A stretch of 64,000 bases of DNA, taken from the NCBI RefSeq assembly GCF_002008315.2, contig NZ_MVDG02000001.1, forward strand, positions 1,984,001 through 2,048,000. Reading direction: 5' to 3'. The translations under genes were made by a program, and so were the position numbers. Shown piece after piece: positions 13,531 through 32,152 of this stretch. The notes under the pieces were generated by a model, which saw only the letters and a list, made by a program, of their open reading frames with translations, ran no database searches and had not been told where the DNA came from. How positions within the stretch are numbered: the first letter of the stretch is position 1; every line of letters starts with the position of its first letter. Source of the DNA: Arthrobacter sp. KBS0703. GTDB taxonomy: Bacteria > Actinomycetota > Actinomycetes > Actinomycetales > Micrococcaceae.

Positions 13531-13535
13531 ATGTA

Positions 13536-13881
13536 ATGCCTGCCATGGTTCGCGCCCATCCTTCCCGGCAAACTTGAGGCCTTCAAGGAACTGGACGCCG
13601 AGACCCAAGGACCCCGGAAGGAAGAATTTCGGCTGTCTCGGCAGCGGATGGGGATTGTCCGGGACGTGGTCAGCCATATGGCTACGCCTCAAGGCGATTT
13701 CGCCTGCATCTTCCGGGAGGGGGAGGACATCGCCATGGCTTTACGAATGGCCGCCACCTCCGAGGATCCCTTCGATGAGTGGTTCCGTAGCAAGATCGCC
13801 GAGATTCGTGGCATTACGCCAGACATGCTCCAGGGACCGCCTCCCGCCACGTTATATGTGGACTACCGGGCAGACGGCTGA
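13536..13881 (+). pseudogene. Small conserved protein with an early frameshift
   Basis: From about 13546 one frame reads WFAPILPGKLEAFKELDAET, then MGIVRDVVSHMATPQGDFAC, FREGEDIAMALRMAATSEDP and DEWFRSKIAEIRGIT up to a stop at 13881. That is a coherent protein of about 115 residues resembling small actinobacterial proteins of the DUF6176-like or monooxygenase-like ferredoxin fold. The likely start is the ATG at 13536 (ATGCCTGCC), which is out of frame with the rest by one base; removing the A at 13545 would give MPAWFAPILPGK. A GAGGA ribosome site lies at about 13519. It is either a one-base insertion mutation or a sequencing error. Confidence 0.55.
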
Positions 13882-14129
13882 ACTAGGACATCGGGACGGC
13901 CCTGCCCGACACTTGCAACGACGCTCGGCCTTGGCGGACGCGGACGAGGACGAGCTGGTCAGACAGACAGCGGTCTACCTTGCCGAACGCCAGCCCGTCG
14001 AGGACTTCCCGCCAATGCTTGACCTTCTCGAGGTTGATGGCCAGCTACGAGGACTACCCCGAACACATCCGGCATCGGCTCGGCCCCTAGCTGTACTGAG
14101 TCAGGACGTTGGTTACATCGTGAATAGGT

Positions 14130-14183
14130 GAAGACCTCTTAGGTTGGTGGTTACCACACACAGCCAACGACTAAGAGGTCTTC
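14130..14183 (+). promoter_or_regulatory. 13-bp perfect inverted repeat just before the transposase start
   Basis: GAAGACCTCTTAG (14130-14142) and CTAAGAGGTCTTC (14171-14183) are perfect reverse complements separated by 28 bases. The right arm ends immediately before the ATG at 14184 and contains the only purine-rich AAGAGG that could serve as a ribosome site. In mRNA the stem would hide that site, a plausible brake on transposase translation, especially on read-through transcripts that enter from outside. This role is inferred from position. Confidence 0.6.
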
Positions 14184-15163
14184 ATGATCCACCGTAATGC
14201 CCGCCTGACCCCGACCGGTAGACGGATCCTTGTCGAACGCGTCCTGAACGGCCGTCCGATTGCCCATGTGGCCAAAGAACTGGGCATCTCGCGGACCTGC
14301 GCCCACCGCTGGATTAGCCGCTACCGGGCCCACGGCTGGGAAGGGCTGCAGGACCGCAGCTCCAGACCAAAGTCATGCCCGCACGCCACTCCGGGGAAAG
14401 TCGTTGCCGAGGTCCTGACAAAACGCGTAGAGCACCGCGAGGGGCCGGCCAATCTGGCATTGCGTTGCGGGGTCAGCGCCCGGACGGTCTCTCGGATTCT
14501 GGCCCGTGCCGGCATGCCGCGGCTGTGGGACCTGGACCCGGTGACCGGGGCCCGGATCCGCGCTTCCCGTGCCACTGGCCGCCGCTATGAACGCGACGGC
14601 CCGGGGGACATGATCCACGTCGACGTCAAGAAACTCGGGCGGATCCCCGAGGGCGGAGGCTGGCGGGCCGACCCTTCCCAGGGCCCGGCTAACCACCGCA
14701 GATCACACCAGAAGCTGGGTTTCGACTACGTCCACGTGGCCGTCGATGACTACACCCGCTTCGCCTACGCCGAGGTCCTTCCCGACGAGAAGGGCCCGAC
14801 CTGCGCCGGATTCCTCACCAGAGCTGCGGCCGCCATGGCCGCCAACGGGGCGCCGGTCAAACGGGTCATGACCGACAACGCATTCGCCTACCGGCTCTCC
14901 CGCGATTTCCAGGACGCCCTAACTGCGCTGGGCGCTAAACACATCCTGATCAAACCCCGGCATCCCTGGCAAAACGGCAAAGCAGAACGCTTCAACCGCA
15001 GCGCACCCTGCAGGAAGGCTGGGCCTACCGGCAACCATTCACGTCCAACCAGGCGCGCACCGACGCCCTGCAGCCATGGCTAAACTTCTACAACAACCAC
15101 CGGCCCCACGGCAGCCTCGGAGGCAAGCCACCCATCAGCAGGTGCAACCAACCTACTGGCTGA
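14184..15163 (+). pseudogene. IS481-family transposase, frameshifted near the C-terminus
   Basis: The N-terminal helix-turn-helix is clear (GRPIAHVAKELGISRTCAHR, residues about 24-45). An rve integrase core follows, with HVAVDDYTRFAYAE, MTDNAFAYR and WQNGKAERFNR supplying the Asp-Asp-Glu catalytic residues. At about 14997-15002 five extra bases (AGCGC within CCGCAGCGCACCC) shift the frame. The expected tail LQEGWAYRQPF, WLNFYNNHRPHGSLGGKPP continues in another frame to a stop at about 15163. The in-frame product would end at 15083 with an aberrant tail. The catalytic residues precede the break, but loss of the conserved tail probably inactivates it. Confidence 0.85.
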
Positions 15164-15325: not shown

Positions 15326-15343
15326 GTGTTGAAATTCCAACAC
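15326..15343. promoter_or_regulatory. DeoR-type operator, copy 1
   Basis: GTGTTG-AAATTC-CAACAC is a perfect 6-bp inverted repeat with a 6-bp spacer, placed 53 bp before the phosphohexomutase start at 15396. Near-identical sites lie at 18528-18545 and 19770-19787, each in front of a gene of the sulfoquinovose module. The three share GTGTTG and ATTCCAACA. The DeoR protein encoded at 17698-18480 is the natural candidate to bind them. Confidence 0.75.
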
Positions 15344-15395
15344 TCCGTGTTCGCATAGCTACTAATGCACATGGCCACGACTTCCCGGGAGCAAT

Positions 15396-16784
15396 ATGGA
15401 CCTGTCACCGTCCTTCAAGGCCTATGACGTGAGGGGCCTCGTCGGCGTTTCCATCAGTGAGGAAAGCGCCGAAGCAGTGGGCGCCGCGTTTGTGGACGTG
15501 CTGGGCCTGTCCGGCCAGACCATCGCCTGCGGAGGGGACATGCGGCCCTCTTCACCCGGCTTCAGCGGCGCCTTTGCGGCGGGTGCTGCCCGGCGCGGTG
15601 CGGACGTGAAGTCCCTGGGCCTTATCTCCACCGATGAGCTTTACTACGTGTGCGGCGCCCTGGACATAGCCGGGGCCATTTTCACCGCGAGCCATAACCC
15701 CGCGGAATACAACGGGATCAAGATGGCCAAGGGCGGCGCCGTCCCGGTTTCCGCAGAAACCGGGCTCACGGCCATACGGGATCTGGCCCAGCAGTATGTC
15801 GACCGCGGGATCCCCGCAGCCGCGGCCCAGGGCACCGTGTCCACGCTTGACGTGCTCGCGGGTTACGCCGGAAAGCTCCGCTCGCTCGTGCCCTTGAATG
15901 CCGTCCGGCCGCTGAAGGTGGTGGTGGACGCCGGCAACGGCATGGCGGGCCTGACCGTTCCCGCGGTCCTTGGGGACCAGTTCCACCCTGCTTTGCCGCT
16001 CACTGTTGTGCCGCTGTACTTCGAGCTCGACGGGACGTTCCCCAACCATCCTGCCAACCCCCTTGAGCCGGAGAACCTTCGCGACCTGCAAGCCGCCGTC
16101 ATCGCCCACGGCGCCGATATTGGCCTGGCCTTCGACGGCGACGCCGACCGCTGCTTCGTGGTCGACGAGAACGGAAGGCCAGTCACGCCGTCGGCCGTTA
16201 CGGCATTGATTGCCGTCCGGGAGATCCGCCGCGCCCAGGCCGCCGGGGAAGCCGAACCGGTGATCATCCACAACCTGATCACGTCGCGCGCGGTGCCGGA
16301 AATTGTTGCCGCCGCGGGCGGACGACCGGTCCGGACCCGGGTGGGGCATTCCTTTATCAAGGCTCGGATGGCCGAGGAGGGCGCCGTGTTCGGCGGCGAA
16401 CACTCGGCCCACTACTACTTCCGCGACTTCTACAACGCGGACACGGGCATGCTTGCCGCCATGCACGTCCTGGCCGCCCTCGGCGAGCAGGAGCGGCCCT
16501 TGTCCGAACTGGCCCGCGAGTTCGACCCGTACGCGGCCAGCGGCGAAATCAACTCATCCGTTGACGGCGTCGACGGCAAGGTGGCGGACGTGCGGGCCAG
16601 CTACGCGAACGGTGCCGTAATCGATGAACTCGACGGGCTCAGCGTCAGCAGCGAGGCCGGGGACTGGTGGTTCAACCTGAGGGCCTCCAACACGGAGGAA
16701 CTGCTGCGGCTTAACGTCGAAGCCGCCGACACCGCCACCATGGCCCAGGTGCGCGACGCCGTCCTCCAGCAGATCCGGGCCTAG
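15396..16784 (+). CDS. manB: Phosphomannomutase/phosphoglucomutase
   Basis: 462 residues, standard for the alpha-D-phosphohexomutase family. It starts FKAYDVRGLVG; the phosphoserine loop is FTASHNPAEYNGIKMAK (about residues 95-111), the metal-binding loop is FDGDADRCF (about 246), the sugar-specificity loop is GGEHSAHYYFRD (about 330), and RASNTEELLRLNVEA binds phosphate. It interconverts 6- and 1-phosphohexoses. A GGGAGCAAT ribosome site precedes the ATG. An operator of the sulfoquinovose regulon sits just upstream. As sulfoquinovose yields only dihydroxyacetone phosphate for growth, the enzyme may support cell-wall sugar synthesis under those conditions; that is inference. Confidence 0.9.
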   Translation: MDLSPSFKAYDVRGLVGVSISEESAEAVGAAFVDVLGLSGQTIACGGDMRPSSPGFSGAFAAGAARRGADVKSLGLISTDELYYVCGALDIAGAIFTASHNPAEYNGIKMAKGGAVPVSAETGLTAIRDLAQQYVDRGIPAAAAQGTVSTLDVLAGYAGKLRSLVPLNAVRPLKVVVDAGNGMAGLTVPAVLGDQFHPALPLTVVPLYFELDGTFPNHPANPLEPENLRDLQAAVIAHGADIGLAFDGDADRCFVVDENGRPVTPSAVTALIAVREIRRAQAAGEAEPVIIHNLITSRAVPEIVAAAGGRPVRTRVGHSFIKARMAEEGAVFGGEHSAHYYFRDFYNADTGMLAAMHVLAALGEQERPLSELAREFDPYAASGEINSSVDGVDGKVADVRASYANGAVIDELDGLSVSSEAGDWWFNLRASNTEELLRLNVEAADTATMAQVRDAVLQQIRA

Positions 16785-17701
16785 CGGCCCAACACCACGT
16801 TCACCGGTTCCTCGCCCGCCAGCAGCAACGAGATCTGCTGCCTGACCAGCCGGACCATCCGCGGGAACATCGCCGAGCTCGCCCCGCCCACGTGCGGGGT
16901 GATGAGCACGCCGGGAGTGGTCCACAGCGGGTGGCTGGCCGGCAGCGGCTCGGGGTCGGTGACGTCCAGGGCGGCCCGCAGCCGCCCGGACGACGTTTCG
17001 GCCCGCAGGGCATCCGTGTCAGCCACCGGGCCTCGGGCCACATTCACCAGCAGCGCTCCGTCCGGCATCGCGGCCAGGAACTTCCGGTCCACCAGCTGGT
17101 GCGTGAGCTCACTCAAGGGGACACTGACCACCACGATGTCGTGCAGCGGCAACTGTTCATACAGCGCATCGATCCCGTGGATCCGGCCCCGCTCATCGTC
17201 CCGCTCCCCGCTGGCCATCCGCGTCACTTGCGTTTCGAACGGCAGGAGCGTGGCCTCGATGGCCTTCCCCACTCCCCCGTAGCCCACCAGCAGCACGCGT
17301 CGGTCCGCAAGGCTGGGCCGCTGGATGTTGTCCCAGGTCCCGGACGCCTGGTTCCGCACGAAGTCGGGCATCCCGCGCTGGCTGGCGATCATCATGCCCA
17401 CGGCGAGTTCCGCCGTGGACGTCTCGTGGACCCCGGCCGCATTGGCGAAAACACAACCGTCGGGCAGGACGGCAGCCACGCCGTCATAGCCGATCGACTG
17501 GCTCTGCACCAGCCCCACCTCAACGCCGTCCAGCGCGGCCAGCGCCGCTGGCTTGCCCATGTAGGGCGGCACCAGCAGGTCTAAACGGCCCGACGGCGGC
17601 GGTCCGCTAAGGTCCCACAGGACAAACTCGACGCCGGCAATCGGATCGAGCGCGTCCAGCATCTTCCGGTCGGGCAGGGCCACCCGCAGCGGCACGCTCA
17701 C
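16781..17701 (-). CDS. D-isomer-specific 2-hydroxyacid dehydrogenase
   Basis: 306 residues with a GTG start that overlaps the DeoR stop (GTGA). The NAD-binding fold has VLLVGYGGVGKAIEATLLPF (about residues 140-160). The catalytic Arg is in NVARGPVADTDAL, the Glu in VTDPEPLP and the His in ITPHVGGAS, the order seen in glyoxylate/hydroxypyruvate reductases. It should oxidise or reduce a 2-hydroxyacid/2-oxoacid pair in the cytoplasm. Its stop codon overlaps the convergent phosphohexomutase stop (CTAG, 16781-16784). Cotranscription with the DeoR gene suggests a role in sulfosugar use, for example on glycerate, hydroxypyruvate or sulfolactate, but the substrate is unknown. Confidence 0.85.
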   Translation of the reverse strand: MSVPLRVALPDRKMLDALDPIAGVEFVLWDLSGPPPSGRLDLLVPPYMGKPAALAALDGVEVGLVQSQSIGYDGVAAVLPDGCVFANAAGVHETSTAELAVGMMIASQRGMPDFVRNQASGTWDNIQRPSLADRRVLLVGYGGVGKAIEATLLPFETQVTRMASGERDDERGRIHGIDALYEQLPLHDIVVVSVPLSELTHQLVDRKFLAAMPDGALLVNVARGPVADTDALRAETSSGRLRAALDVTDPEPLPASHPLWTTPGVLITPHVGGASSAMFPRMVRLVRQQISLLLAGEEPVNVVLGR

Positions 17702-18480
17702 GCGGCCACCACGATCTTGACGTTGGCGGCACCCAGTGCGTCCTCGATCTCCCGGGGCGGCGGCGCGTCCGTCACCAGCACGTCCACGGCGTCGAAGGCG
17801 GCGAGCCGCGCCAGCGCGTACCGCAGCATTTTCTGGTGCGTTGCCACCACCACCACCTGTTCAGCTGAGTCCATAAGGGCGATCTTAGTGGCGCGCTCCA
17901 CGTCCCGCTCGATGTAGAACGCCTCGTCGTGGAGCCCGCTGACCCCGATAAACGCCGTTTTGGCCCGGAGGCCGGAGGCGGCGCTCACCGTCATGGGACC
18001 GTTGAACGCCTGGCTGTCCAGGAGCAGCTCACCTCCGAGGCAGATGGTCCGCGCCGCCGTCAGCTGCAGGCAGCGCTGGATGGCGGGCGCGGAGTGCGTG
18101 ATGATGGTGCCCGCGAACGTCGGCGGCAACTCCAGAGCAATTTGGTACGTGGTGGTTCCGGCGTCCAGGATGATGGCGTCCCGCTCGCCGATCATGGACA
18201 CGCAGGCCCGGGCCACCCGCTGCTTGGCGTCAGCATCCTCCCGGACCCGGGCCGCGAAGTCCGCGTTCTGCCCGCTGGCGTTGACGGCGCTGACGCCGCC
18301 GTGGACCACCCGTGCCAGCCCCTTTTGGGAAAGCACGCGGGTGTCCCGGCGCACCGTCATGTCCGAGACCGCGAACGTTTCGGCGAGGTCCATCGTGGAG
18401 ATGAAGCCCCGCTGCTCGAGGTGGTCCAGGATGGTGCGCTGGCGGGGCGTCAACGGCGCCTCTTTCGGTGAGCTGCTCAT
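17698..18480 (-). CDS. DeoR-family transcriptional regulator of the sulfoquinovose module
   Basis: 260 residues, the size of DeoR repressors of sugar operons. The N-terminal winged HTH is RQRTILDHLEQRGFISTMDL followed by FAVSDMTVRRDTRVL (residues about 12-50). The C-terminal sensor domain has DAIILDAGTTTYQIALELP and GVSGLHDEAFYIE, the sugar-phosphate binding fold. It lies between the Gfo/Idh/MocA gene and the hydroxyacid dehydrogenase, and its own promoter region carries a copy of the shared palindrome (18528-18545). This predicts autoregulation plus control of the divergent kinase and the phosphohexomutase. A sulfosugar phosphate would be the expected inducer, by analogy with the DeoR-type regulator YihW (CsqR) of Escherichia coli. 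Confidence 0.88.
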   Translation of the reverse strand: MSSSPKEAPLTPRQRTILDHLEQRGFISTMDLAETFAVSDMTVRRDTRVLSQKGLARVVHGGVSAVNASGQNADFAARVREDADAKQRVARACVSMIGERDAIILDAGTTTYQIALELPPTFAGTIITHSAPAIQRCLQLTAARTICLGGELLLDSQAFNGPMTVSAASGLRAKTAFIGVSGLHDEAFYIERDVERATKIALMDSAEQVVVVATHQKMLRYALARLAAFDAVDVLVTDAPPPREIEDALGAANVKIVVAA

Positions 18481-18527
18481 ATCCCCTTCTCCTGCTTCCC
18501 TTAATCGGGCGAATTAGGCCTGCCAGG

Positions 18528-18545
18528 GTGTTGCAATTCCAACAC
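18528..18545. promoter_or_regulatory. DeoR-type operator, copy 2
   Basis: GTGTTG-CAATTC-CAACAC lies in the 73-bp gap between the stop of the Gfo/Idh/MocA gene and the DeoR start at 18480. It is a perfect inverted repeat and matches copies 1 and 3. Position suggests autoregulation of the repressor gene. Confidence 0.75.
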
Positions 18546-18553
18546 AAATCTAC

Positions 18554-19804
<1,251 letters not shown>

Positions 19805-19837
19805 TCAGTATCAGCCGTAACTACAACGAGGTGGAAC

Positions 19838-20755
19838 GTGTCCCAACCATCATCCGGAACCCTGCTCTTCGTAGGCTGCGCCACTCTTGACTCCATTGCA
19901 GTCGTCCAGGATTACCCCGCCGCGGACAGCCGCACCGTCGCCATGGACTTCGCGACGGCAGGCGGCGGCCCGGCTGCCACCGCAGCCGTAGCGGCTGCCC
20001 GCGCGGGCGCACACACAGCCTTCGCAGGCGTCCTCGGAACGGACGAGGAAGGCGACCGCATCATCGCCGGACTGCAGGCAGAAGGCGTGGACACCTCCGC
20101 GGTGGTCCGCGATCCCGATGTCAAGACCGGCGCGAGCGTAATTGTTGTCAGCCAGGCCTCCGAAAGCCGGGCCATTGTCACCCGGCCCGTGCCGCCGGTC
20201 AGCTTTCCAGCCGGCAGCCGGTTCCATGAACTGGTGGAATCGGCCGCCTGGGTCCACGTGGACCATCTGGGCTGGAACGCCGTCGCTTCCCTTCCGGCCT
20301 TCGGCGCCGGAACCCTGAAGGTCAGCGTGGATGCCGGCAACCCCATCGCGTCCTTCAGCCCGCGGGGCGTGGCCCTCTACGTCCCAACCATTGAACGGCT
20401 CCACGCAGAGTACGGCGGGCACCACTCCCCCGAAGCGCTCCTGGGCAAAGCGGTCGACGACGGCGCCTCCGCCGTCGTCGCCACCGCCGGCTCTGAAGGC
20501 GCCTGGGTCAGGGACGGCAACGCGGACCCGCTCCACGTGCCGGCCACACCGGCCACCATCGTCTCCACCCTTGGCGCGGGCGACGTCTACCACGGCGCCC
20601 TCCTCGCCGCTGTTGCCGCCGGCCTGCCGCTGGCGGACGCCGCAGCTTTCGCCGGTCGCACCGCCTCCGCCTCCTGCGAAGGACTGGACGGCCGTTCCAA
20701 AATCCCGCACCAGACCATCACCCCCGCCTTTGCCTCCAACCACAGCCCTAGCTGA
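19838..20755 (+). CDS. yihV: PfkB-family kinase, probable 6-deoxy-6-sulfofructose kinase
   Basis: 305 residues from the GTG at 19838 (VSQPSSGTLLFVGCATLDSI), preceded by GAGGTGGAAC. The ribokinase/PfkB fold shows ATAGGGPAATAAVAAARAG near residue 40 and the anion-hole and catalytic-base motif STLGAGDVYHGALLAA near residue 245. Length and order next to a YihT-type aldolase match Escherichia coli YihV, which phosphorylates 6-deoxy-6-sulfofructose at C1. It is the first gene of the rightward operon and is controlled from a divergent promoter with the shared DeoR operator. PfkB kinases vary in substrate, so the assignment leans on context. Confidence 0.82.
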   Translation: MSQPSSGTLLFVGCATLDSIAVVQDYPAADSRTVAMDFATAGGGPAATAAVAAARAGAHTAFAGVLGTDEEGDRIIAGLQAEGVDTSAVVRDPDVKTGASVIVVSQASESRAIVTRPVPPVSFPAGSRFHELVESAAWVHVDHLGWNAVASLPAFGAGTLKVSVDAGNPIASFSPRGVALYVPTIERLHAEYGGHHSPEALLGKAVDDGASAVVATAGSEGAWVRDGNADPLHVPATPATIVSTLGAGDVYHGALLAAVAAGLPLADAAAFAGRTASASCEGLDGRSKIPHQTITPAFASNHSPS

Positions 20756-20767
20756 AAGAAGCAGCAC

Positions 20768-21652
20768 ATGACCCTCACAGACCTCTCACCCCTCCAGCGC
20801 CCGTCCGGCGCCTTCGCGATGCTCGCCGTGGACCAGCGCGAGGCGATGCGCAACATGATCGCCGAACACCAGGAAGACCCCGTCACGGACCAGGACCTCC
20901 AGGACTTCAAGCTCCAGGCCGCCAAAATCCTCACCCCCTATGCCTCCGGCGTCCTCATCGATAGGCAGTTCGCCCTCGACCAGGCCATCGAGGACAACGT
21001 GGTTGACCCCGGCTGCGGACTCATCGCCTCCGCCGACCACTTCGAAACCGCGCACGGCGAGCTGGTGGGCGAAGTGACCATCGACCGGCTGGTGGACCCG
21101 CACAAATACGCTGCCCTCGGCGTCAAGGCCCTCAAGCTGCTGGTGCTGTACCGCCCGGACGAGCCCGCCGACGGCCGCGTGGCCATGGTCCGCGAATTCG
21201 TGGAGATTTGTAAGTCCGCCGGGCTCATCAGCATCATCGAACCTGTATCCCGCAAACCACTCTCCGGCGATGACTTCGACTGGAACGCAGGCATCCTGGC
21301 CGCTGCCAAGGAACTGGGGAGCCTGGGCGCCGACCTCTACAAGGCCGAGGTTCCCTTCCACGGCCAGGCTCCCGAAGCCGACGTGCGCGCAGCCTGCGCC
21401 GACCTGACGCGGGCCATCAACGGCCCGTGGGTGGTCCTTTCCTCCGGCGTCCCCGAGGATGTTTTCCCCGACGCAGTCCGGTGGGCCTGCCTCGAAGGCG
21501 CCAGCGGCTTCCTCTCCGGACGCGCCGTCTGGGCGTCCTGCATCGGCGCCACCGACGTCGTCGACTCCCTGTCCACTGACGCCGTCCGGCGGCTGCAGCG
21601 CCTGTGCGCCGTGGTGGACGACGTGGTCTCGTCGCAAAAGACCAGTGCATGA
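20768..21652 (+). CDS. yihT: 6-deoxy-6-sulfofructose-1-phosphate aldolase
   Basis: 294 residues, matching the roughly 290 of YihT. It has GAFAMLAVDQREAMRNMIAE at residues 15-34, ALKLLVLYRP (with the Schiff-base lysine region) near 125, LISIIEPVSRKPLSGDDFDW near 155, GADLYKAEVPFHG near 190, and WVVLSSGVPEDVFPDAVR followed by GASGFLSGRAVWAS near 230-260. All of these are close to what I recall of the Escherichia coli protein. It cleaves sulfofructose-1-phosphate to dihydroxyacetone phosphate and 3-sulfolactaldehyde. It begins 12 bases after the kinase stop, with GAAAGAAGCAGC upstream. Class I tagatose-bisphosphate aldolases are the related alternative, but neighbours settle the call. Confidence 0.92.
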   Translation: MTLTDLSPLQRPSGAFAMLAVDQREAMRNMIAEHQEDPVTDQDLQDFKLQAAKILTPYASGVLIDRQFALDQAIEDNVVDPGCGLIASADHFETAHGELVGEVTIDRLVDPHKYAALGVKALKLLVLYRPDEPADGRVAMVREFVEICKSAGLISIIEPVSRKPLSGDDFDWNAGILAAAKELGSLGADLYKAEVPFHGQAPEADVRAACADLTRAINGPWVVLSSGVPEDVFPDAVRWACLEGASGFLSGRAVWASCIGATDVVDSLSTDAVRRLQRLCAVVDDVVSSQKTSA

Positions 21653-21828
21653 GCAGTCCCGACGCGCCAAGCGCTTCCTGGTGACAGCCATTCCGTAGGC
21701 AACAAGCAAGGCACAGCAAAACACTCAACGAGGAGAAAATTGTGAGTCAGATTTCACGCAGGCAGGCCATCGCGATTCTCGGAGCCCTGGGCTTCGGAGC
21801 AACTGCGGCAGCATGCGCCGGGCCGGGC

Positions 21829-21866
21829 CTGTCTCTTATACACATCTAGATGTGCATAAGAGACAC
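21829..21866. other. Nextera mate-pair junction adapter, copy 1 (assembly contamination)
   Basis: CTGTCTCTTATACACATCT followed at once by its reverse complement is the Tn5 mosaic-end junction used in Nextera mate-pair libraries. This copy has two differences from the exact adapter, at 21855 (C for T) and the last base. There is no transposon body. It is a library or assembly artefact, not biology. Confidence 0.95.
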
Positions 21867-21906
21867 GGGGCCGGCCGCCCCGTCCACCGGCGCCGTCACC
21901 GGCAAG

Positions 21907-21944
21907 GTGTCTCTTATACACATCTAGATGTGTATAAGAGACAG
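21907..21944. other. Nextera mate-pair junction adapter, copy 2 (assembly contamination)
   Basis: The same 38-bp mosaic-end palindrome, with only its first base altered. Its translation gives SYTHLDVYKRQ, a string widely seen as contamination in protein databases. The 40 bases between the two copies (21867-21906) read like genuine linker codons (AAPSTGAVTGK) of the binding protein. Confidence 0.96.
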
Positions 21945-23053
21945 GGCGAGGACAAGGCGGTGTTCGATGAACTCATCAAGCGCTTCGCTGCAAAGCACGA
22001 CGGCGTGGAGGTTGCCCAGGACATCTCCACCTCCAACGACTACAACGCCCAGGGCCTGCAGAAGGTCCGCGGCGCAGCCATCGGTGACGCGTTTGCGACC
22101 TTCCGCGGCGCCCAGTTCAAGAACTTCACCGAGGCCGGCATCTACACCGAGCTCAAGGACAGCAAGGCAGTAGGCAACTACCAGCCGGGCCTGCTTTCCG
22201 CCGGGAAGTCCGGCGACAGCCAGCTGGGCCTGCCGTACCAGGTGGTCTTCCCCATGCCGATGGCCAACGCGGACCTGTTCGCCAAAGCCGGCGCGGACAT
22301 CGCACCGAAGAACTGGGACGGGTTCCTGGCCATGTGCGAGAAGCTCGCAGCTTCCGGCGTCATCCCGATCTCCTGGCCGGGCGGCGACGTGGGAAACGGC
22401 GGCCAGCTGTTCAACTGCATGATCGCCAACAACGCCCCCGTCGACGACATGTGCGCCCAGATCGAGCAGGGCAAGCTCAAGGTCACCGACGACTGGTTCA
22501 TCAAGATGCTCAATCAGTACAAGGAACTTATCCCCTACCTGCAGCCCAATGCCACCGGCACCGCGGTGGAGCCGGCGCAGAACCTGTTCTCCCAGGGAAA
22601 AGCCGCGATGCTCGCCACCGGCTCGTACCACATCGCTGCCGTCCGCGGACTGGGGGCAACGTTCCCCATCGAGCTCGTCTTCCCCAACACCTCGGACGGC
22701 TCCGGCAAGTACGAGGGCGCCTACAACGCCACGTTCATCCTGGGCGTCAACTCAGCCAGCAAGAACCAGGCCGCCGCGGCAGCATGGATCGATTTTCTGT
22801 CCGAGCCGGAGAACGCCGGCTACTACGCCAACCAGACGGCCCAGCACGTGACCGTGGACAAGGTGGAGTACACCAACCCGGACCTGAAGCGCCTGAGCCC
22901 CTGGCTTGAGAAAAAGACGGCGCTGGCCGCCCGGTTCCAGTTCCAGAACCTTGATGTCCGCAACGCGGTGGAGGCCAGTGCCACGGCTGTCGTCTCGGGC
23001 ACCAGCCCCGAGCAGGCCGCCGAAGCCGCCCAGAAGATTGTTGACGAACGGCT

Positions 23054-24016
23054 ATGAGCACCCACACCAAAATGGCTGCCGAACGGAAGGCCCCGGACGG
23101 CGGAACTGAAACCGACGCAGCGACGAGGCGCCGCCGCTCCCCCACGCGGGCGAATCCGGCACTGTATCTCTTCCCGCTTCCCGCCGTCGCCATCATTGCG
23201 TTCTTCCTGGTGATGCCCACCCTGCAGGCGTTCCAGTACGCCATCACGGACTGGAACGGCTTCTCCGCGGCGTTCAACTACGTGGGGCTGGACAACTTCG
23301 TCCGTGCCTTCACCAAGGACTCGCTTTTCACCAACGCGCTGACCAACAACCTGAAGTTTGTGCTGATGGTGGTCATCGCGCAGACGGCCTTCTCCCTGGT
23401 GCTGGCCCTGCTCCTGACGAAGAATTCACGCGGCAGCATCCTGCTCCGCGCCCTGTTCTTCTTCCCCACCATCCTGTCCTCCGTCTCCGTGGCCTTCATC
23501 TGGAAGTTCATCTACGACCCCAACTTCGGCCTGGCCAATGCGGTCCTCGGCGGAGTTGGCCTGGAAGCCCTGCAGGGTTCCTACCTCGGAAACAACGCCC
23601 AGGCCCTGTACTGGGTGGCCGTGACGCAGGTCTGGTTCCACGCGGGACAGATGATGGTGGTCTACATCGCCGGCCTGCAGGCCATCCCGCGGGAACTGTA
23701 TGAGGCCGCGGAGATGGACGGCGCCGGGAAATGGCAGCAGTTCAAGTCCATCACCTGGCCGTTTGTGGCCCCGGCAACGTCAATCGTCGTCGCCTACACC
23801 ACCGTCCAGTCGTTCAAGGCCTTCGACCTGATCCTGGGCATCGCGGGGAACCCGCCCAAGCAGTCCTTGGATATCCTCTCCACCCGCATTTACAGCACCT
23901 TTGCCAACTCGGAATTCGGCTACGCCGCCGCCCAGTCGATCATCTTTATGGCGATGATCGCCTTGGTCACCTGGCTCCAGCGCCGGTTGCTCCGGCTGAC
24001 CCCGAAGGGGGAATGA
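23054..24016 (+). CDS. Sugar ABC transporter permease, MalF/UgpA type
   Basis: 320 residues with six predicted membrane segments, beginning after a charged N-terminal tail of about 40 residues (first helix LYLFPLPAVAIIAFFLVMPT). The cytoplasmic EAA loop that docks the ATPase is YEAAEMDGAGKWQQFKSITW (about residues 215-235), ending IAGNPPKQSLDILSTRIYST. The start overlaps the binding-protein stop. No ATPase gene is in the module, so the importer probably uses a shared MsiK-type ATPase encoded elsewhere, as is common in actinobacteria. Presumed cargo is sulfoquinovose or sulfoquinovosyl glycerol. Confidence 0.9.
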   Translation: MSTHTKMAAERKAPDGGTETDAATRRRRSPTRANPALYLFPLPAVAIIAFFLVMPTLQAFQYAITDWNGFSAAFNYVGLDNFVRAFTKDSLFTNALTNNLKFVLMVVIAQTAFSLVLALLLTKNSRGSILLRALFFFPTILSSVSVAFIWKFIYDPNFGLANAVLGGVGLEALQGSYLGNNAQALYWVAVTQVWFHAGQMMVVYIAGLQAIPRELYEAAEMDGAGKWQQFKSITWPFVAPATSIVVAYTTVQSFKAFDLILGIAGNPPKQSLDILSTRIYSTFANSEFGYAAAQSIIFMAMIALVTWLQRRLLRLTPKGE

Positions 24017-24020
24017 CAGC

Positions 24021-24836
24021 ATGCTCGCTTCACTAAGTCGCCGCGCAATTCTCGGAATCTACGCGGTCATCATCATCGTTCCGCTGACCGTGGTGGGGTT
24101 CGGCAGCTTCAAGTCCACGCAGGAACTCTTCGCCGGGCCGTTCAGCCTGCCGCAGTCCCTCTCACCCGCCAACTACGCGGAGGTGATCGGCGGCCAGGAT
24201 CTGGGGTCGTCGTTCATGAACAGCGTCATTGTCACCGCCATCTCCGTCCCCCTGACCCTATTCCTGGCCAGCCTGGCCGGGTACGCCATCTCCCGGCTCA
24301 AGGGGTTTATGGCCTGGGCCATCTTCGGTTTCCTGGTCCTGGGCATGGCCATCCCGGCGCAGGCCAACATGGTGCCGTTGTACGTCCTGTTCGGCCGGCT
24401 CGGTCTGCTGGACAGCCTGGCAGGCCTGGTGCTGGCCAACGTCGTGTCCACCCTGCCCATCGCCGTCTTTATCCTCGGCGGGTTCATGCGGACCCTGCCC
24501 AAGGAGCTGTACGAGGCATCCTCCATTGACGGCACCGGCCCGTGGCGGACGTACGTCTCCATCGCGCTCCCCCTGTCCGCCCCGTCAGTGGCCGCAGCAG
24601 CGATCTTCCTGTTCGTCATCCACTGGAACGAACTCCTCTATCCGCTGCTGTTCATCCAGTCCCCGGGCAACCGGACCCTGCCGCTGGCACTGCTCAGCTT
24701 CCAGGGCGAGTTCCAAACCAACTACCCGCTCCTGTTCGCCGGTGTCATCCTGGCGTCCCTGCCCGTGGTGGTCGCCTACGTCTTCCTGCAGCGCTACTTC
24801 GTTGCCGGGATTACCGCCGGAGCAAGCAAGGGATGA
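24021..24836 (+). CDS. Sugar ABC transporter permease, MalG/UgpE type
   Basis: 271 residues, six membrane segments. The EAA motif is YEASSIDGTGPWRTYVSIAL (about residues 165-185), followed by FVIHWNELLYPLLFIQSPGN, the typical MalG-type WNE stretch. It starts four bases after the first permease stop and is translated with it. The pair forms the channel of the importer whose lipoprotein is encoded just upstream. No substrate signature is readable; the call for sulfosugar uptake rests on the flanking sulfoglycolytic genes. Confidence 0.9.
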   Translation: MLASLSRRAILGIYAVIIIVPLTVVGFGSFKSTQELFAGPFSLPQSLSPANYAEVIGGQDLGSSFMNSVIVTAISVPLTLFLASLAGYAISRLKGFMAWAIFGFLVLGMAIPAQANMVPLYVLFGRLGLLDSLAGLVLANVVSTLPIAVFILGGFMRTLPKELYEASSIDGTGPWRTYVSIALPLSAPSVAAAAIFLFVIHWNELLYPLLFIQSPGNRTLPLALLSFQGEFQTNYPLLFAGVILASLPVVVAYVFLQRYFVAGITAGASKG

Positions 24837-24876
24837 GGACCCCGGACCTCCACCAGCCCAACGAAAGGCAACATAC

Positions 24877-26316
24877 GTGAACCTGAAATCAGCCCGACAC
24901 CTGGTGAATGGAACCTGGCACACGGCCGGCAGTTCCAAGGACGTGACCGACCCCGGAAACGGCAGCACGGTTGGCGAAGTGGCCTGGGGCACCGCCGAAG
25001 ACGCCACTGCCGCTGCAGGCGCCGCGGCCGACGCCTTCGGTTCCTGGTCCCGGACCACCGCGCGCCACCGGGCAGACCTGCTCCGGAACGCCGCCGACCT
25101 GCTGGCCGAACGCCGCGACGAACTGGCCCACATCCTGGCCCTGGAAGCCGGAAAACGGCTCCCGGAAGCCCAGGGTGAGGTGGACTTCTCGGTGGAATAC
25201 TTCCGCTGGTTCGCCGAGGAAGTCCGCCGCTCCACCGGCACCGTCAGCCCGCCCGAACTCCAGGGCCGGCGCCACCTCAGCCTCCGCAAACCCATCGGCG
25301 TGGCACTCAGCCTCACCCCGTGGAACTTTCCCGTATCCATCCAGGCCCGCAAACTCGCCGCAATGCTGGCCGCAGGCTGCACCGTGGTGGGCCGGGTCTC
25401 CGAAAAGGCGCCGCTCGCCGCCACCGGACTGTTCGAGGTCCTGCACGAGGCCGGGTTCCCCGCCGGCGTCGTTAACCTGGTCCACGGACCCTCGCGCGAA
25501 ATCACCGCAGCCCTGCTCCAACACCCCGCCGTGCGGGCCGTCAGCTTCACCGGATCCACCGGCGTAGGCCGTCAGATCATGGCCTCCGCTTCAGAACGCG
25601 TGGTCCGTCCGCTGCTTGAACTGGGCGGCAACGCACCGTTCATCGTCTTCGAGGACGCGGACCTGGACGCAGCCGTCGACGGCGCCGTCCTGGGCCGGCT
25701 CCGCAACACCGGCCAGTCGTGCGTGGCAGCGAACCGATTCCTGGTTCAGGACAGCATCGCCGACGAGTTCACCCGGAAGCTGGGCGCGCGCTTCGACGCG
25801 ATGAGCATCGGGCATGGCGTCCCCGAGGGCGGCGCAACGGTCCCGGACCTTGGTCCCATGATCGACGCCGAGCGGGTGACCGCCGTTCAGGCCCTCGTGG
25901 ATGACGCCCTGAACCGCGGCGCCCGGCGCGTCACGCAGCGGACCGATGTCCCCCGGCAGGGCGCGTTTATGGCCCCCACACTGCTCACGGACGTCCCCGA
26001 CGACGCACCCCTGGTGAGCGAAGAAGTGTTCGGCCCGGCGGCCGGCGTCGTGACCTTTTCTTCCGAGGAGGACGCCATCCGCAAGGCGAACGCCACAGAG
26101 ATGGGCCTCGCCGCGTACGTCTGGAGCCGCGATCCCAAGCGCGCCTGGGATGTCCCCGAACGCCTGGAAGCCGGCATCGTGGGGGTCAACGATCCCCTCC
26201 CCTCCGTGGCGTTCGCCCCCATGGGCGGCGCCAAGCAGTCCGGCCTGGGCCGCGAAGGAGCAAGCCTTGGCCTCGAGGAGTTCGAGGAGGTCCAGTACGT
26301 GGCCTGGAGGCCGTAA
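24877..26316 (+). CDS. Aldehyde dehydrogenase, probable 3-sulfolactaldehyde dehydrogenase
   Basis: 479 residues from the GTG at 24877 (NLKSARHLVNGTWHTAGSS), preceded by AACGAAAGGCAAC. It belongs to the GabD-like ALDH superfamily: LTPWNFPVSIQARKLAAML for the cofactor cleft, FTGSTGVGRQIM for NAD(P), LELGGNAPFIVFEDADLD with the general-base Glu, and NTGQSCVAANRF with the catalytic Cys. In sulfoquinovose pathways that excrete sulfolactate, such an enzyme oxidises sulfolactaldehyde. Escherichia coli instead reduces it with YihU, and no YihU-like reductase is seen here. Succinate semialdehyde is the main alternative substrate for the family. Confidence 0.85.
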   Translation: MNLKSARHLVNGTWHTAGSSKDVTDPGNGSTVGEVAWGTAEDATAAAGAAADAFGSWSRTTARHRADLLRNAADLLAERRDELAHILALEAGKRLPEAQGEVDFSVEYFRWFAEEVRRSTGTVSPPELQGRRHLSLRKPIGVALSLTPWNFPVSIQARKLAAMLAAGCTVVGRVSEKAPLAATGLFEVLHEAGFPAGVVNLVHGPSREITAALLQHPAVRAVSFTGSTGVGRQIMASASERVVRPLLELGGNAPFIVFEDADLDAAVDGAVLGRLRNTGQSCVAANRFLVQDSIADEFTRKLGARFDAMSIGHGVPEGGATVPDLGPMIDAERVTAVQALVDDALNRGARRVTQRTDVPRQGAFMAPTLLTDVPDDAPLVSEEVFGPAAGVVTFSSEEDAIRKANATEMGLAAYVWSRDPKRAWDVPERLEAGIVGVNDPLPSVAFAPMGGAKQSGLGREGASLGLEEFEEVQYVAWRP

Positions 26317-27060
26317 ATGCTGACCACCGGGCTCGTGCTGGGCGCCGTTGTCATGGGAGCCGGGATGCAGCGCATCACCGGCATGGGCTTCGCCCTGGTG
26401 GCAGCCCCCTTCCTGGTACTGCTCCTGGGCCCGGTGGAGGGGGTCGTATTGGTGAACGTCTGCGGCGCCGTGACCGCGGGGGCCATCATCTTCCGGGTGG
26501 TGCGGGACATCGACTGGAAGCGGTACGCGGCACTGGCGGCGTCGGCGCTGCTGGGAATCATCCCCGCAGCCTTCCTGATCCGGCTCATCCCGCCGGCGGT
26601 GCTGGAGATCTCCATCGGGGTGCTCCTCGCCGTCGGGCTCACCTTTTTGCTTGGCCTCAAGTCCGCCACGCTTCCTCCGCGCCGCCGCTACCTGTTCACG
26701 GCCGGCGGCCTGAGCGGGTTTATGAATACGGCGGCCGGGGTGGGCGGGCCTGCCGTCAGCATGTACTCCATCGCCACCCGGTGGCAGCACAAATCCTTCG
26801 CTGCCACCATGCAACCGTACTTTTTCACCATCGGCGTGTTCTCCCTGATCTCCAAGGCCCTCACTGCCCCGGCCACCTTCCCCGCACTGCCCTGGGGAAT
26901 GTGGGTGGCCGTCGCCGTGGCCTGCCTCGCAGGCCTGGTGCTGGGCGACGTCGCTGCCCGGTTCGTCCCGGCGCGGGCCGCCCAGGTCCTGCTGATCGTC
27001 CTGGCCTACCTGGGAGCGGCTGCCACCATCATCCGCGGTGTGCTCGATGCCATCGGCTAG
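26317..27060 (+). CDS. TauE/SafE-family exporter, probable sulfolactate exporter
   Basis: 247 residues, almost wholly hydrophobic, with about eight membrane helices; it begins LTTGLVLGAVVMGAGMQRIT followed by GMGFALVAAPFLVLLLGP, the first TauE repeat. The second repeat has GGLSGFMNTAAGVGGPAVSM. TauE/SafE proteins export sulfite or organosulfonates and recur in sulfoquinovose clusters to remove the C3 sulfonate product. Its ATG follows the dehydrogenase stop directly (TAAATG), tying product formation to export. Direction and cargo are inferred from neighbours. Confidence 0.88.
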   Translation: MLTTGLVLGAVVMGAGMQRITGMGFALVAAPFLVLLLGPVEGVVLVNVCGAVTAGAIIFRVVRDIDWKRYAALAASALLGIIPAAFLIRLIPPAVLEISIGVLLAVGLTFLLGLKSATLPPRRRYLFTAGGLSGFMNTAAGVGGPAVSMYSIATRWQHKSFAATMQPYFFTIGVFSLISKALTAPATFPALPWGMWVAVAVACLAGLVLGDVAARFVPARAAQVLLIVLAYLGAAATIIRGVLDAIG

Positions 27061-27111
27061 CAGCCGCTGCTGCACCACCCCATCCCCTCAACCATCAACG
27101 AAAGGGCTGCC

Positions 27112-27297
27112 ATGGCTCTCGTCTCCCCACAAGATAACCCACTGCGCGTGTCCACCAACAAGGGCGAGACCGTCACCCTGACGCTTGATGCGGGCGCTCC
27201 AGTGACCATACAGCTTGATGTTCGAGGGCAGTGCAGCTGCGGGGGCACTGCCAGAGTTGCTGGCGCATACACAGACACCGACTTCGGCACTCACTAA
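27112..27297 (+). CDS. Small Cys-containing protein of unknown function
   Basis: 61 residues, with GAAAGGGCTGCC before the ATG. It reads NPLRVSTNKGETVTLTLDAG, then VTIQLDVRGQCSCGG and AYTDTDFGTH: beta-rich with one CxC pair. It resembles the first part of the decayed gene at 290-575, where the same domain is followed by a cupin. It could therefore be a free-standing domain or the surviving N-terminus of a cupin protein cut at this point. It sits between the exporter and the isomerase of the sulfoquinovose operon and is likely cotranscribed. I do not recognise a function. Confidence 0.6.
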   Translation: MALVSPQDNPLRVSTNKGETVTLTLDAGAPVTIQLDVRGQCSCGGTARVAGAYTDTDFGTH

Positions 27298-27342
27298 TCA
27301 GGCATCATTCTCAATCTGCACCCACCATGGAAAGGAAATAAC

Positions 27343-28593
27343 ATGACGTGGCTGAACAGCGCCGCTCACGCGCGATGGCTGGAGTCCGAAACCGATCGGC
27401 TGATCAATTTCGCCGCGGGTTCAAAGGTGCCCACCGGATTCGGCTGGCTCGACAACAACGGCGCGGTGTTCACCGACAAGCCGACCCACCTCTGGATTAC
27501 CGCGCGGATGGTTCATAGTTTCGCCGTCGCTGCCCTGATGGGGCGGCCAGGCGCTGCTACCCTCGTCGACCACGGCATCGCCGCCCTCAACGGAGTCTTC
27601 CACGATGATGAGTTCGGCGGCTGGTATGCCGAGGTAGACGGGAACGGACCGGTAAACGACACCAAGTCCGGTTACCAGCACTCCTTCGTGCTCCTCGCGG
27701 CTGCCAGCGCCGTTGCGGCCAACCGCCCGGGCGCCAAGGAATTGCTCGACGAGGCACTGCGCATCGCTGACACCAGGTTCTGGGACCACGACGCCGGCAT
27801 GTGCTTCGACTCGTGGAACCGGGAATTTACGGAAACTGAAGCATACCGTGGCGGTAACGCGAGCATGCATTCCGTCGAGGCGTACCTCATCGTCGCCGAT
27901 GTGACCGGGGAGAACCGCTGGCTCGAACGGGCCCTCCACATCGCCGAGGTGCTCATCCACGACTTTGCGCGCAACAACAACTACCGGGTCTTCGAGCACT
28001 TCGACCCGGAGTGGAACCCCATGCCGGAGTACAACACCGATGACCGGGCCAGCCAGTTCCGCGCGTACGGCGGAACCCCCGGCCACTGGGTTGAGTGGGC
28101 ACGCCTGCTCCTGCACATCCGCGCCGGGCTCGAAGCCCGCGGCATGGACGTCCCAGCCTGGCTGCTGGACGACGCACGGGGCCTGTTCGACGCCGCCATC
28201 CGCGACGCCTGGCAGCCGGACGGCCATCCCGGATTTGTTTACACCGTCGACTGGGAAGGCAAGCCGGTTGTCACCACCCGCATCCGCTGGGTTCCCGCCG
28301 AGGCAATCGGGGGCGCGGCAGCTCTGTACATCGCCACCGGCGAGAAGAAGTATTCAGAATGGTACGAACGAATCTGGGACCACGCCCGCGACTGGTTCAT
28401 CGATTACGAGCACGGATCCTGGAAGCAGGAACTCGACGAGCACGGCAATGTCACCTCCACTGTGTGGTCGGGCAAGGCGGACATCTACCACCTCTGGCAC
28501 TGCCTGGTAGTGCCGCGACTTCCACTGGCGCCGGGGCTTGCTCCCGCCGTCGCGGCCGGCCTGCTGGATGCAGGGCTTGCTGCGTCCAGGTAA
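27343..28593 (+). CDS. yihS: Sulfoquinovose isomerase (YihS-type, AGE superfamily)
   Basis: 416 residues against about 413 for YihS of Escherichia coli. The match is strong along the length: [125 protein letters not shown] and [20 protein letters not shown]. The catalytic histidines of the alpha6/alpha6 barrel fall in [10 protein letters not shown] and [10 protein letters not shown]. It isomerises 6-sulfoquinovose to 6-deoxy-6-sulfofructose, the first committed step. AGGAAATAAC precedes the ATG. It closes the operon and is followed by a strong hairpin. Confidence 0.95.
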
Positions 28594-28659
28594 CACGAGA
28601 AACCTGCGGCCCCTGATTTCGTGGATCCTGTGGAAAGCCGCTAGTTAGACACCCAGCAA

Positions 28660-28696
28660 CCCAGAGTAGGTGACCATAGTGGTCACCTACTCTGGG
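28660..28696 (+). terminator. Strong hairpin after the sulfoquinovose operon
   Basis: Two perfectly complementary 17-bp arms (28660-28676 and 28680-28696) enclose a 3-base loop (TAG). It lies 66 bp beyond the isomerase stop. There is no T-run after it, so it may act as an intrinsic terminator of the GC-rich type, a 3'-end RNA stabiliser, or a protein site; terminator is the simplest reading. Confidence 0.6.
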
Positions 28697-29844: not shown

Positions 29845-30846
29845 TCAGTCTTTGCTGCTGAATGCGGCGTCGAAGCTGGTCTGCGACGCCGGGAAGTCGA
29901 ACTTCTTCAGCGCCGCCAGGGCCTCCGGTGCGCCGTGGAGGCGGTCCATGCCGGCGTCTTCCCATTCGATGCTGATGGGTCCGTTATAGCCGATGGCGGT
30001 GAGGGCGCGGAAGGAGGATTCCCAGGGGACGTCGCCGCGTCCGGCGGAGACGAAGTCCCAGCCCCGGCGTGGGTCGCCCCAGGGCAGGTGGGAGCCGAGG
30101 ACGGTGTTCCGGCCGGTGGGGCGGAGCTTGGTGTCTTTGCAGTCCACGTGGTAGATCCGGTCTTTGAAGTCCCAGATGAAGGAGACGGGGTCGATGCCCT
30201 GCCACATGAAGTGGGAGGGGTCCCAGTTCAGCCCGAACGCGGGACGGTGGCCGATGGCTTCGAGGGTGCGGACGGTGGTCCAGTAGTCGTAGGCGATCTC
30301 ACTCGGGTGGACTTCGTGGGCGAAACGGACCCCGCACTCGTCGAAGACGTCCAGGATGGGGTTCCAGCGGTCCGCGAAGTCCTGGTAGCCGGCCTCGATG
30401 ACCTTTTCCGGCACGGGCGGGAACATCGCGACGTACTGCCAGATGGAGGAGCCGGTGAACCCGACGACGGTGTCCACGCCGAGGGCTTTGGCGAGCCGGG
30501 CGGTGTGCTTCATTTCCTCGGCGGCGCGTTGCCGGACGCCTTCGGGGTCGCCGTCGCCCCAGACTTTGGACCCGACGATCGCTTCGTGGCGGAAGTCGAT
30601 GGGGTCATCGCAGACGGCCTGGCCCTTGAGGTGGTTGGAGATGGCCCAGACCTTGAGGTTGTATTTGTCCAGGACCGCGAGTTTGGAGTCGACGTAGCCG
30701 GGTTCGTCCCAGCGCCAGGCGTCCAGATGGTCCCCGGAGACAGCGATTTCCAGGCCGTCGTAGCCCCAGCCGGACGCCAAACGCGCGACTTCCTCGAACG
30801 GGAGGTCGGCCCACTGGCCGGTGAAGAGGGTGTAGGGGCGGGGCAT
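29845..30846 (-). CDS. TIM-barrel sugar isomerase/epimerase (xylose isomerase-like)
   Basis: 333 residues of the AP-endonuclease-2/xylose-isomerase-like fold. Early strand GWGYDGLEIAVSGDHLDAWR; metal-ligand regions FAHEVHPSEIAYDY (Glu), NWDPSHFMWQGIDP (Asp, His), YHVDCKDTKLRPTGR (His) and ISIEWEDAGMD (Glu). It starts just inside the stop of the upstream Gfo/Idh/MocA gene (TGACATG), so the two act as a pair. Such pairs occur in inositol, keto-sugar and 3-keto-glycoside catabolism. The carbon-glycoside-cleaving enzymes of Arthrobacter also use a TIM-barrel subunit of this fold. The exact substrate is unknown. Confidence 0.85.
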   Translation of the reverse strand: MPRPYTLFTGQWADLPFEEVARLASGWGYDGLEIAVSGDHLDAWRWDEPGYVDSKLAVLDKYNLKVWAISNHLKGQAVCDDPIDFRHEAIVGSKVWGDGDPEGVRQRAAEEMKHTARLAKALGVDTVVGFTGSSIWQYVAMFPPVPEKVIEAGYQDFADRWNPILDVFDECGVRFAHEVHPSEIAYDYWTTVRTLEAIGHRPAFGLNWDPSHFMWQGIDPVSFIWDFKDRIYHVDCKDTKLRPTGRNTVLGSHLPWGDPRRGWDFVSAGRGDVPWESSFRALTAIGYNGPISIEWEDAGMDRLHGAPEALAALKKFDFPASQTSFDAAFSSKD

Positions 30847-30847
30847 G

Positions 30848-32017: not shown

Positions 32018-32152
32018 CGTTTTGTCCTTTCTCATGCGAGTTCGCGAGGGTATTGTGTGCAACGCTGACAGGATCTGGCTGAGGCTATCGACGGGTTTCT
32101 TGACTGCTTGAGCTGACTGTGCCCCCGCTGATGATCCCTGCGGCTATTGCTG

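Follow-up and report, generated by a model that had tools for sequence, protein, structure and literature searches.

A gene cluster for the catabolism of sulfoquinovose, the plant sulfolipid sugar, lies at 15326-28593 of a 64,000-nucleotide stretch of the Arthrobacter sp. KBS0703 genome (called the window; positions G000:C1:1984001-2048000, the genome being 4.86 Mb long, 99.99% complete and assembled in 37 contigs). Judging from the homologues of YihS, YihV and YihT that stand together in it, this is an Arthrobacter-type cluster of the sulfoglycolytic Embden-Meyerhof-Parnas (sulfo-EMP) pathway, and it is almost certain that it forms a regulon with the GH188 sulfoquinovosidase SqgA, a known redox glycosidase, and with sulfolactate as product. 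Homology, active-site conservation, synteny, the distribution of an operator and the lack of a GH31 match were observed here, and the activities, the product and its export are predicted from published relatives. The core of the cluster confirms, from raw sequence, that a further Arthrobacter-like genome carries a pathway for recycling an organosulfur compound that is among the most abundant; the remaining interest lies in the outline of the regulon and in a dedicated mutase.

The cluster begins with an operator copy, a phosphohexomutase gene (+), a 2-hydroxyacid dehydrogenase gene (-), a DeoR-family regulator gene (-), a second operator copy, sqgA (-) and a third operator copy, and continues on the forward strand with the genes for a kinase, an aldolase, a solute-binding protein, two permeases, an aldehyde dehydrogenase, a TauE/SafE permease, a 61-residue open reading frame (ORF) and YihS (Table 1). 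A preliminary description of this DNA had named YihS, the kinase, YihT, the aldehyde dehydrogenase, TauE and the Gfo/Idh/MocA protein, all of which were recovered in profile searches and searches for solved relatives. Absent from it were the ATP-binding cassette (ABC) importer genes (21742-24836), the DeoR regulator, the 2-hydroxyacid dehydrogenase, the phosphohexomutase paralogue, the 61-residue ORF and the adaptor scars. Our genus sample consists of 150 genomes, which are related and hence not independent, and SqgA is present (E <= 1e-100) in 45 of them. These 45 loci were annotated, with up to 20 kb around sqgA taken for the 44 besides the window; some end at contig ends or at the 20-kb limit. 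Among these SqgA-selected loci, the regulator is found in 44, the aldehyde dehydrogenase (SlaB) and TauE in 43 each, the kinase and aldolase in 42 and YihS in 39.

Since the pathway, the excretion of sulfolactate and SqgA have been described by Kaur et al. in 2022 (PMC8873060) and 2023 (PMC10755693), the window cluster adds one more member to a system already known. According to the text of the first paper, Arthrobacter AK01 and AK04 were isolated, grow on sulfoquinovose and excrete sulfolactate. Their cluster includes a sulfolactaldehyde (SLA) dehydrogenase, an ABC transporter, TauE (AK04) and an IolG homologue, with no known sulfoquinovosidase, and further Arthrobacter and Pseudarthrobacter strains carry identical or related clusters; one strain named there, MYb23 (PCPR01000010.1), is locus L011 in our sample. 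The text of the second paper identifies the Gfo/Idh/MocA-type protein encoded in these clusters as SqgA and establishes the family GH188; ArSqgA cleaves 4-nitrophenyl alpha-sulfoquinovoside, and SqgA structures are available as PDB 8qc2, 8qc3, 8qc5, 8qc6 and 8qc8. When compared with the AK04/AK01 cluster, the window has the same YihS, sulfofructose kinase, YihT, GabD-type enzyme (here a proposed SLA dehydrogenase), ABC importer, TauE (AK04) and Gfo/Idh/MocA gene, and likewise no GH31; a phosphohexomutase, a 2-hydroxyacid dehydrogenase and a DeoR regulator are not mentioned in the text of PMC8873060, its figures and supplements aside. Contact residues and gene context agree with those of GH188 SqgA as given in the text of PMC10755693, with nothing of note differing. 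The preliminary description was right in its biology, but less novel than it implied, pathway and SqgA being already published. The isomerase, kinase and aldolase steps are also those of the E. coli yih sulfo-EMP pathway, which ends in dihydroxypropanesulfonate, whereas the window pathway is predicted to end oxidatively in sulfolactate; GH188 replaces the GH31 enzyme YihQ, and the ABC importer and TauE replace YihO/YihP. The E. coli yih regulator, CsqR, is of the DeoR family, as is the window regulator.

In the mechanism that we propose, the ABC importer would take up sulfoquinovosides, and SqgA would use bound NAD+ to oxidise the sugar at C3, then eliminate the aglycone, add water and re-reduce, releasing sulfoquinovose with no net redox change. 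YihS would convert sulfoquinovose to sulfofructose, the kinase would form the 1-phosphate, and YihT would split this into dihydroxyacetone phosphate and sulfolactaldehyde, which the GabD-like enzyme would oxidise to sulfolactate for export by TauE. The DeoR-family regulator would control three sites: in the sqgA-kinase gap, before its own gene and before the second phosphohexomutase.

The product of 18554-19696, proposed earlier as the best candidate for the glycoside-cleaving step, is, judging from sequence comparisons, the GH188 NAD-dependent sulfoquinovosidase SqgA, with an activity predicted from published relatives. Against solved structures it scores 761 bits to 8qc3 (ArSqgA; residues 17-393) and 756 bits to 8qc2 (FlSqgA), followed by 8zn9 at 356 bits and an inositol dehydrogenase at 81 bits; 8zn9 is an oxidoreductase without further name that has the EHRFPFL and VEKCCHFFD stretches in common with SqgA. 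Identity to the crystallised enzyme of Arthrobacter U41 (ArSqgA) is 89.4% (337/377 residues), the nearest named relatives are from Arthrobacter and Pseudarthrobacter, and PF01408 and PF02894, the Rossmann NAD-binding and Gfo/Idh/MocA C-terminal domains, are above cut-off. All eight contact residues are the same as in ArSqgA, comprising five sugar contacts (K107, Y136, E189, H193 and H321) and three sulfonate contacts (R166, K172 and the backbone of L170). The eight are kept in 80 of 80 relatives' loci, L170 in 79 of 80, in a sample that is biased because it was scanned with query-derived patterns and the best 80 of 589 were kept. At the position of Glu163 in PMC10755693, the window protein has V163 with E164 adjacent, and E164 is found in ArSqgA too; by our count the Glu163 of the paper corresponds to residue 164 of both proteins.

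It could be argued that this protein is no more than a dehydrogenase of sugars or of inositol, making for example sulfogluconolactone or a keto-sugar, and that the glycoside is cleaved by something else. Its best NCBIfam model is indeed an inositol dehydrogenase (124 bits), and the text of Kaur et al. (PMC8873060) itself considered this at first. However, 124 bits is far under the model cut-off of 355 and compares with 761 bits to ArSqgA, the sulfonate contacts R166 and K172 are present together with Y136, H193 and H321, and the contact set is held by none of the six other Gfo proteins of the same genome that were compared (of 23 other matches). K172 is missing from all six, and in five of them the aligned piece does not reach position 321. 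We consider the alternative very improbable, and a plain sugar dehydrogenase identity was rejected in favour of SqgA. The tree called for in the preliminary description, built from 38 of 87 rows, separates 32 GH188-like rows from the six own-genome Gfo/Idh/MocA proteins with a support of 96, although with long-branch warnings, and this placement alone is weak evidence, the outgroup branches being long. The earlier statement that no GH31 sulfoquinovosidase is present holds for the whole genome, in which PF01055 gave no match (six of the 14 control genomes matched, E. coli among them); the domain was also unmatched in the profile scans of the cluster proteins.

Among solved structures, the isomerase scores highest against YihS (592 bits) and sulfoquinovose isomerase (582 bits), the next family reaching 156, and the aldolase scores highest against YihT, at 279 bits compared with 56 for the tagatose-bisphosphate aldolases that follow, which agrees with the strong resemblance claimed for both. 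The TauE/SafE gene was likewise found as described, with PF01925 above its cut-off (Table 1), and export by its product is predicted from published relatives. For the fate of the C3-sulfonate, PF04295, presumably the SuyB family, gave no match in the genome (the control matched in 5 of 14), and a search for Xsc gave 11 matches, none above cut-off (best 299 of 676 bits), which look like general thiamine-diphosphate enzymes. Both negatives fit excretion of the C3-sulfonate over its breakdown.

Several points weigh against this interpretation of the cluster. The likeness of the kinase to sulfofructose kinase, its top solved relative, is modest (104 bits, with other sugar kinases and ribokinases next at 72-73 bits). 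The aldehyde dehydrogenase at 24877-26316 scores highest against succinate-semialdehyde dehydrogenases (417 bits, top solved relative); the searches cannot tell it from these, and the assignment of its substrate comes from context and the published clusters. Oxidation to sulfolactate, as given in the preliminary description, fits the evidence, but is weaker than was stated, the identity of this enzyme coming from context alone. The Xsc search had no positive control, as all 14 control genomes gave matches under the cut-off and none above it (0/14), and the negatives cover PF04295 and Xsc, with sulfolactate dehydrogenases, sulfopyruvate decarboxylase and SLA reductase not searched. No ABC ATPase gene was seen in the cluster, the rest of the genome not being searched for one; in actinobacteria an ATPase encoded elsewhere can be shared among ABC importers, which is likely the case here. 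Lastly, binding of the putative operators by the DeoR protein is deduced from their position.

Sulfolactate would also not be the sole fate if the 2-hydroxyacid dehydrogenase (16781-17701), which may act on sulfolactate or on some different hydroxyacid, interconverted sulfolactate and sulfopyruvate. The overlap of its gene with the regulator gene and its presence in 34 of the 45 loci (one partial) speak for this, and a sulfolactate dehydrogenase of Chromohalobacter belongs to the 2-hydroxyacid dehydrogenase family. On the other hand, orthologues (66-81%) are located outside the cluster in G014, G016 and G020, and also in G012, which has no SqgA, and the tie of this gene to the cluster is looser for that reason. 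In addition, the two downstream sulfonate-cleaving families searched gave no match or none above cut-off, and AK01 and AK04 excrete sulfolactate according to the text of PMC8873060. A protein-database search with the dehydrogenase was uninformative in its names, the best 120 of the 8000 candidates scored (7998 passed) being generic. We regard the interconversion as unlikely and retain sulfolactate as the product.

The regulon was outlined independently by its operator, a 17-base pattern (GTGTTGNNATTCCAACA) that is matched perfectly at just three sites of the whole genome (4.86 Mb), each of them inside the cluster. The first base of the region in the preliminary description, 15326, is the first base of copy 1. 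When reverse-strand reads of two exact sites are discounted, a single further site in the genome has at most 2 mismatches, and it has 2. Because the backward-read controls (5 and 2 at <= 2 mismatches, not broken down) are similar to the real totals (4 and 2), the weight of the operator rests on the exact matches and their clustering. When the window alone was considered at <= 3 mismatches, 6 strand matches were found compared with 0.87 expected. An operator-like site (<= 2 mismatches) lies between the regulator and sqgA in 43 of the 45 loci and between sqgA and the kinase in 36 of 45. Fifteen relatives show strong conservation of the sqgA-kinase gap, which contains GTGTTGTTATTCCAACA, and the divergent operator claimed between these two genes is real (19770-19786). 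The operator also brings in the phosphohexomutase paralogue.

This mutase has the catalytic motifs TASHNP, DGDAD, GEHSAH and RASNTE, and is a second copy, 72% identical to the one at G000:C1:3218376. Mutase copies were counted in the 150 genomes at E <= 1e-150: 17 of the 45 genomes with SqgA have two copies, compared with none of the 105 without it (Fisher p 1e-10, for genomes that are related and not independent). One genome, G082, has a single match, of the cluster type, and four, all without SqgA, have no match. A mutase lies near sqgA in 18 of the 45 loci, of which 17 are full; the other is G112, where the stretch ends inside the gene. There are two main arrangements, with the mutase either beside the regulator and hydroxyacid dehydrogenase or after TauE. 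In seven of the after-TauE loci (genomes G023, G061, G082, G088, G094, G106 and G168; loci L116, L197, L200, L202, L205, L208 and L225), YihS adjoins the regulator, i.e. the sides of YihS and the mutase are swapped when compared with the window. Before the 17 full cluster mutases, the operator site has <= 2 mismatches in 14 and 3 mismatches in G014. In a tree with one distant outgroup row on a very long branch, and with G142 and G112 left out, 16 cluster-type sequences are split from 28 housekeeping sequences (branch length 0.47, support 85/100). The two types differ consistently at 24 positions, including 340 and 346 by the GEHSAH loop and 430 in the RASNTE loop, which we take to be sugar- and phosphate-binding loops.

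Whether the mutase belongs to the regulon has to be weighed against its being an unrelated neighbour that hitchhikes with the cluster. The cluster mutase is absent from 27 of the 45 genomes with SqgA, which also counts against a necessary role. In the window it is convergent, not co-transcribed, with the 2-hydroxyacid dehydrogenase gene, and upstream of the full cluster copies of G094 and G142 nothing resembles the operator, the best site having 6 mismatches. Nevertheless, an operator copy precedes the window mutase, and a site with <= 3 mismatches lies within 300 bp upstream of 15 of the 17 full cluster copies, while none of the 28 housekeeping mutases has a site under 5 mismatches within that distance. 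The gene also accompanies the cluster in both of its two arrangements, and in the genus sample a second copy occurs in genomes with SqgA only (17/45 against 0/105). A hitchhiking neighbour is thus quite unlikely, and the mutase appears to be switched on with the sulfoquinovose genes. We did not find this link described in the literature searched: among titles and abstract starts pairing sulfoquinovose with phosphomannomutase or phosphoglucomutase, none concerned bacterial sulfoquinovose clusters, and the text of PMC8873060 and PMC10755693, figures and supplements aside, does not mention a phosphohexomutase.

As to its role, we infer that the mutase most likely keeps up the supply of glucose-1-phosphate and mannose-1-phosphate during growth on the C3 product. 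A more specific suggestion, which we offer tentatively as a possible but rather doubtful one, is that a dedicated alpha-D-phosphohexomutase isozyme joined the sulfoquinovose regulon in part of the genus since sulfoquinovose and sulfofructose mimic glucose-6-phosphate and fructose-6-phosphate. With its changed residues beside the sugar- and phosphate-binding loops, such an isozyme might keep glucose-1-phosphate and mannose-1-phosphate flowing when sulfosugars would clog the housekeeping enzyme, or might act on a sulfosugar phosphate itself. A mutase that appears to belong to the regulon raises the question whether sulfosugar catabolism needs a mutase of its own.

Table 1. Features of the sulfoquinovose cluster, in window positions.
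Feature	Position	Strand	Basis or remark
Operator copy 1	15326-15342		0 mismatches; 53 nt before mutase start
Second phosphomannomutase/phosphoglucomutase (PMM)	15396-16784	+	NF007088, 679 bits (cut-off 618)
D-2-hydroxyacid dehydrogenase family protein (HADH)	16781-17701	-	PF02826; 4-bp overlap with regulator gene
DeoR-family regulator	17698-18480	-	PF00455 and PF08220; in 44/45 loci
Operator copy 2	18528-18544		0 mismatches; before regulator gene
GH188 NAD-dependent sulfoquinovosidase SqgA (predicted)	18554-19696	-	similarity, contact residues, tree
Operator copy 3	19770-19786		between sqgA and kinase
Sulfofructose kinase (YihV type, PfkB family)	19838-20755	+	longest frame from 19793; start more likely GTG 19838, preceded by GAGG
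Sulfofructose-1-phosphate aldolase (YihT type)	20768-21652	+	solved-relative search
ABC solute-binding lipoprotein gene, split in assembly by two adaptor scars	21742-23057	+	signal peptide; PF01547 on frame from 21813
38-bp adaptor palindrome (assembly artefact)	21829-21866		transposon-adaptor end
38-bp adaptor palindrome (assembly artefact)	21907-21944		transposon-adaptor end
ABC sugar permease 1	23054-24016	+	best model UgpA, under its cut-off
ABC sugar permease 2	24021-24836	+	best model GlcU, under its cut-off
GabD-like aldehyde dehydrogenase, proposed SLA dehydrogenase SlaB	24877-26316	+	solved-relative and profile searches
TauE/SafE permease, proposed sulfolactate exporter	26317-27060	+	PF01925, 75.7 bits (cut-off 32.6)
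Conserved 61-residue ORF with CxC motif	27112-27297	+	recognisable in 28/45 loci
Sulfoquinovose-sulfofructose isomerase (YihS)	27343-28593	+	solved-relative search

Among the transport genes, the solute-binding protein has no close solved relative; its best match (51 bits) is to general sugar-binding proteins, and none of 12 is named as a sulfoquinovose binder. Its gene is interrupted between 21829 and 21944, which might suggest that the cluster is broken in this strain. However, the interruptions are two palindromes of transposon-adaptor ends, presumably Nextera, with arms of 0 to 2 mismatches, which split the signal peptide from the body of the gene. Copies of the adaptor 19-mer (<= 1 mismatch) number 390 on one strand of the assembly and 382 on the other, compared with 0 for the reversed control, and the signal peptide is matched at 92-100% identity in 12 of the 20 relatives' loci searched, at 54% in one, and unmatched in seven. 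The palindromes are assembly contamination and break genes artificially, so a broken cluster is hardly credible and a broken importer was rejected. Interrupted genes found in this assembly are not to be taken as biology.

The 61-residue ORF, between TauE and YihS, has 41-85% identity among the 11 rows compared, with the CxC motif kept in 10 of 11 and the eleventh cut off, and its association with the cluster persists where the gene order differs. Directly left of the first operator is an IS481-family transposase frame (14184-15083; 240.6 bits, cut-off 224), and among the scanned proteins only the mutase and this transposase have NCBIfam names above cut-off. Adjoining the cluster on the other side, 29845-32062 encodes a further Gfo/Idh/MocA protein, for which levoglucosan dehydrogenase is the top model (342 bits against a cut-off of 650), and beside it a protein that weakly resembles IolE (42 bits against a cut-off of 290). 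In relative locus L012, two extra ORFs of about 495 and 400 residues (reverse strand, 13072-14731 and 17618-18782) sit inside the cluster, between the aldolase and the solute-binding protein and between the permease and the dehydrogenase; L013 has gaps of similar size at these positions.

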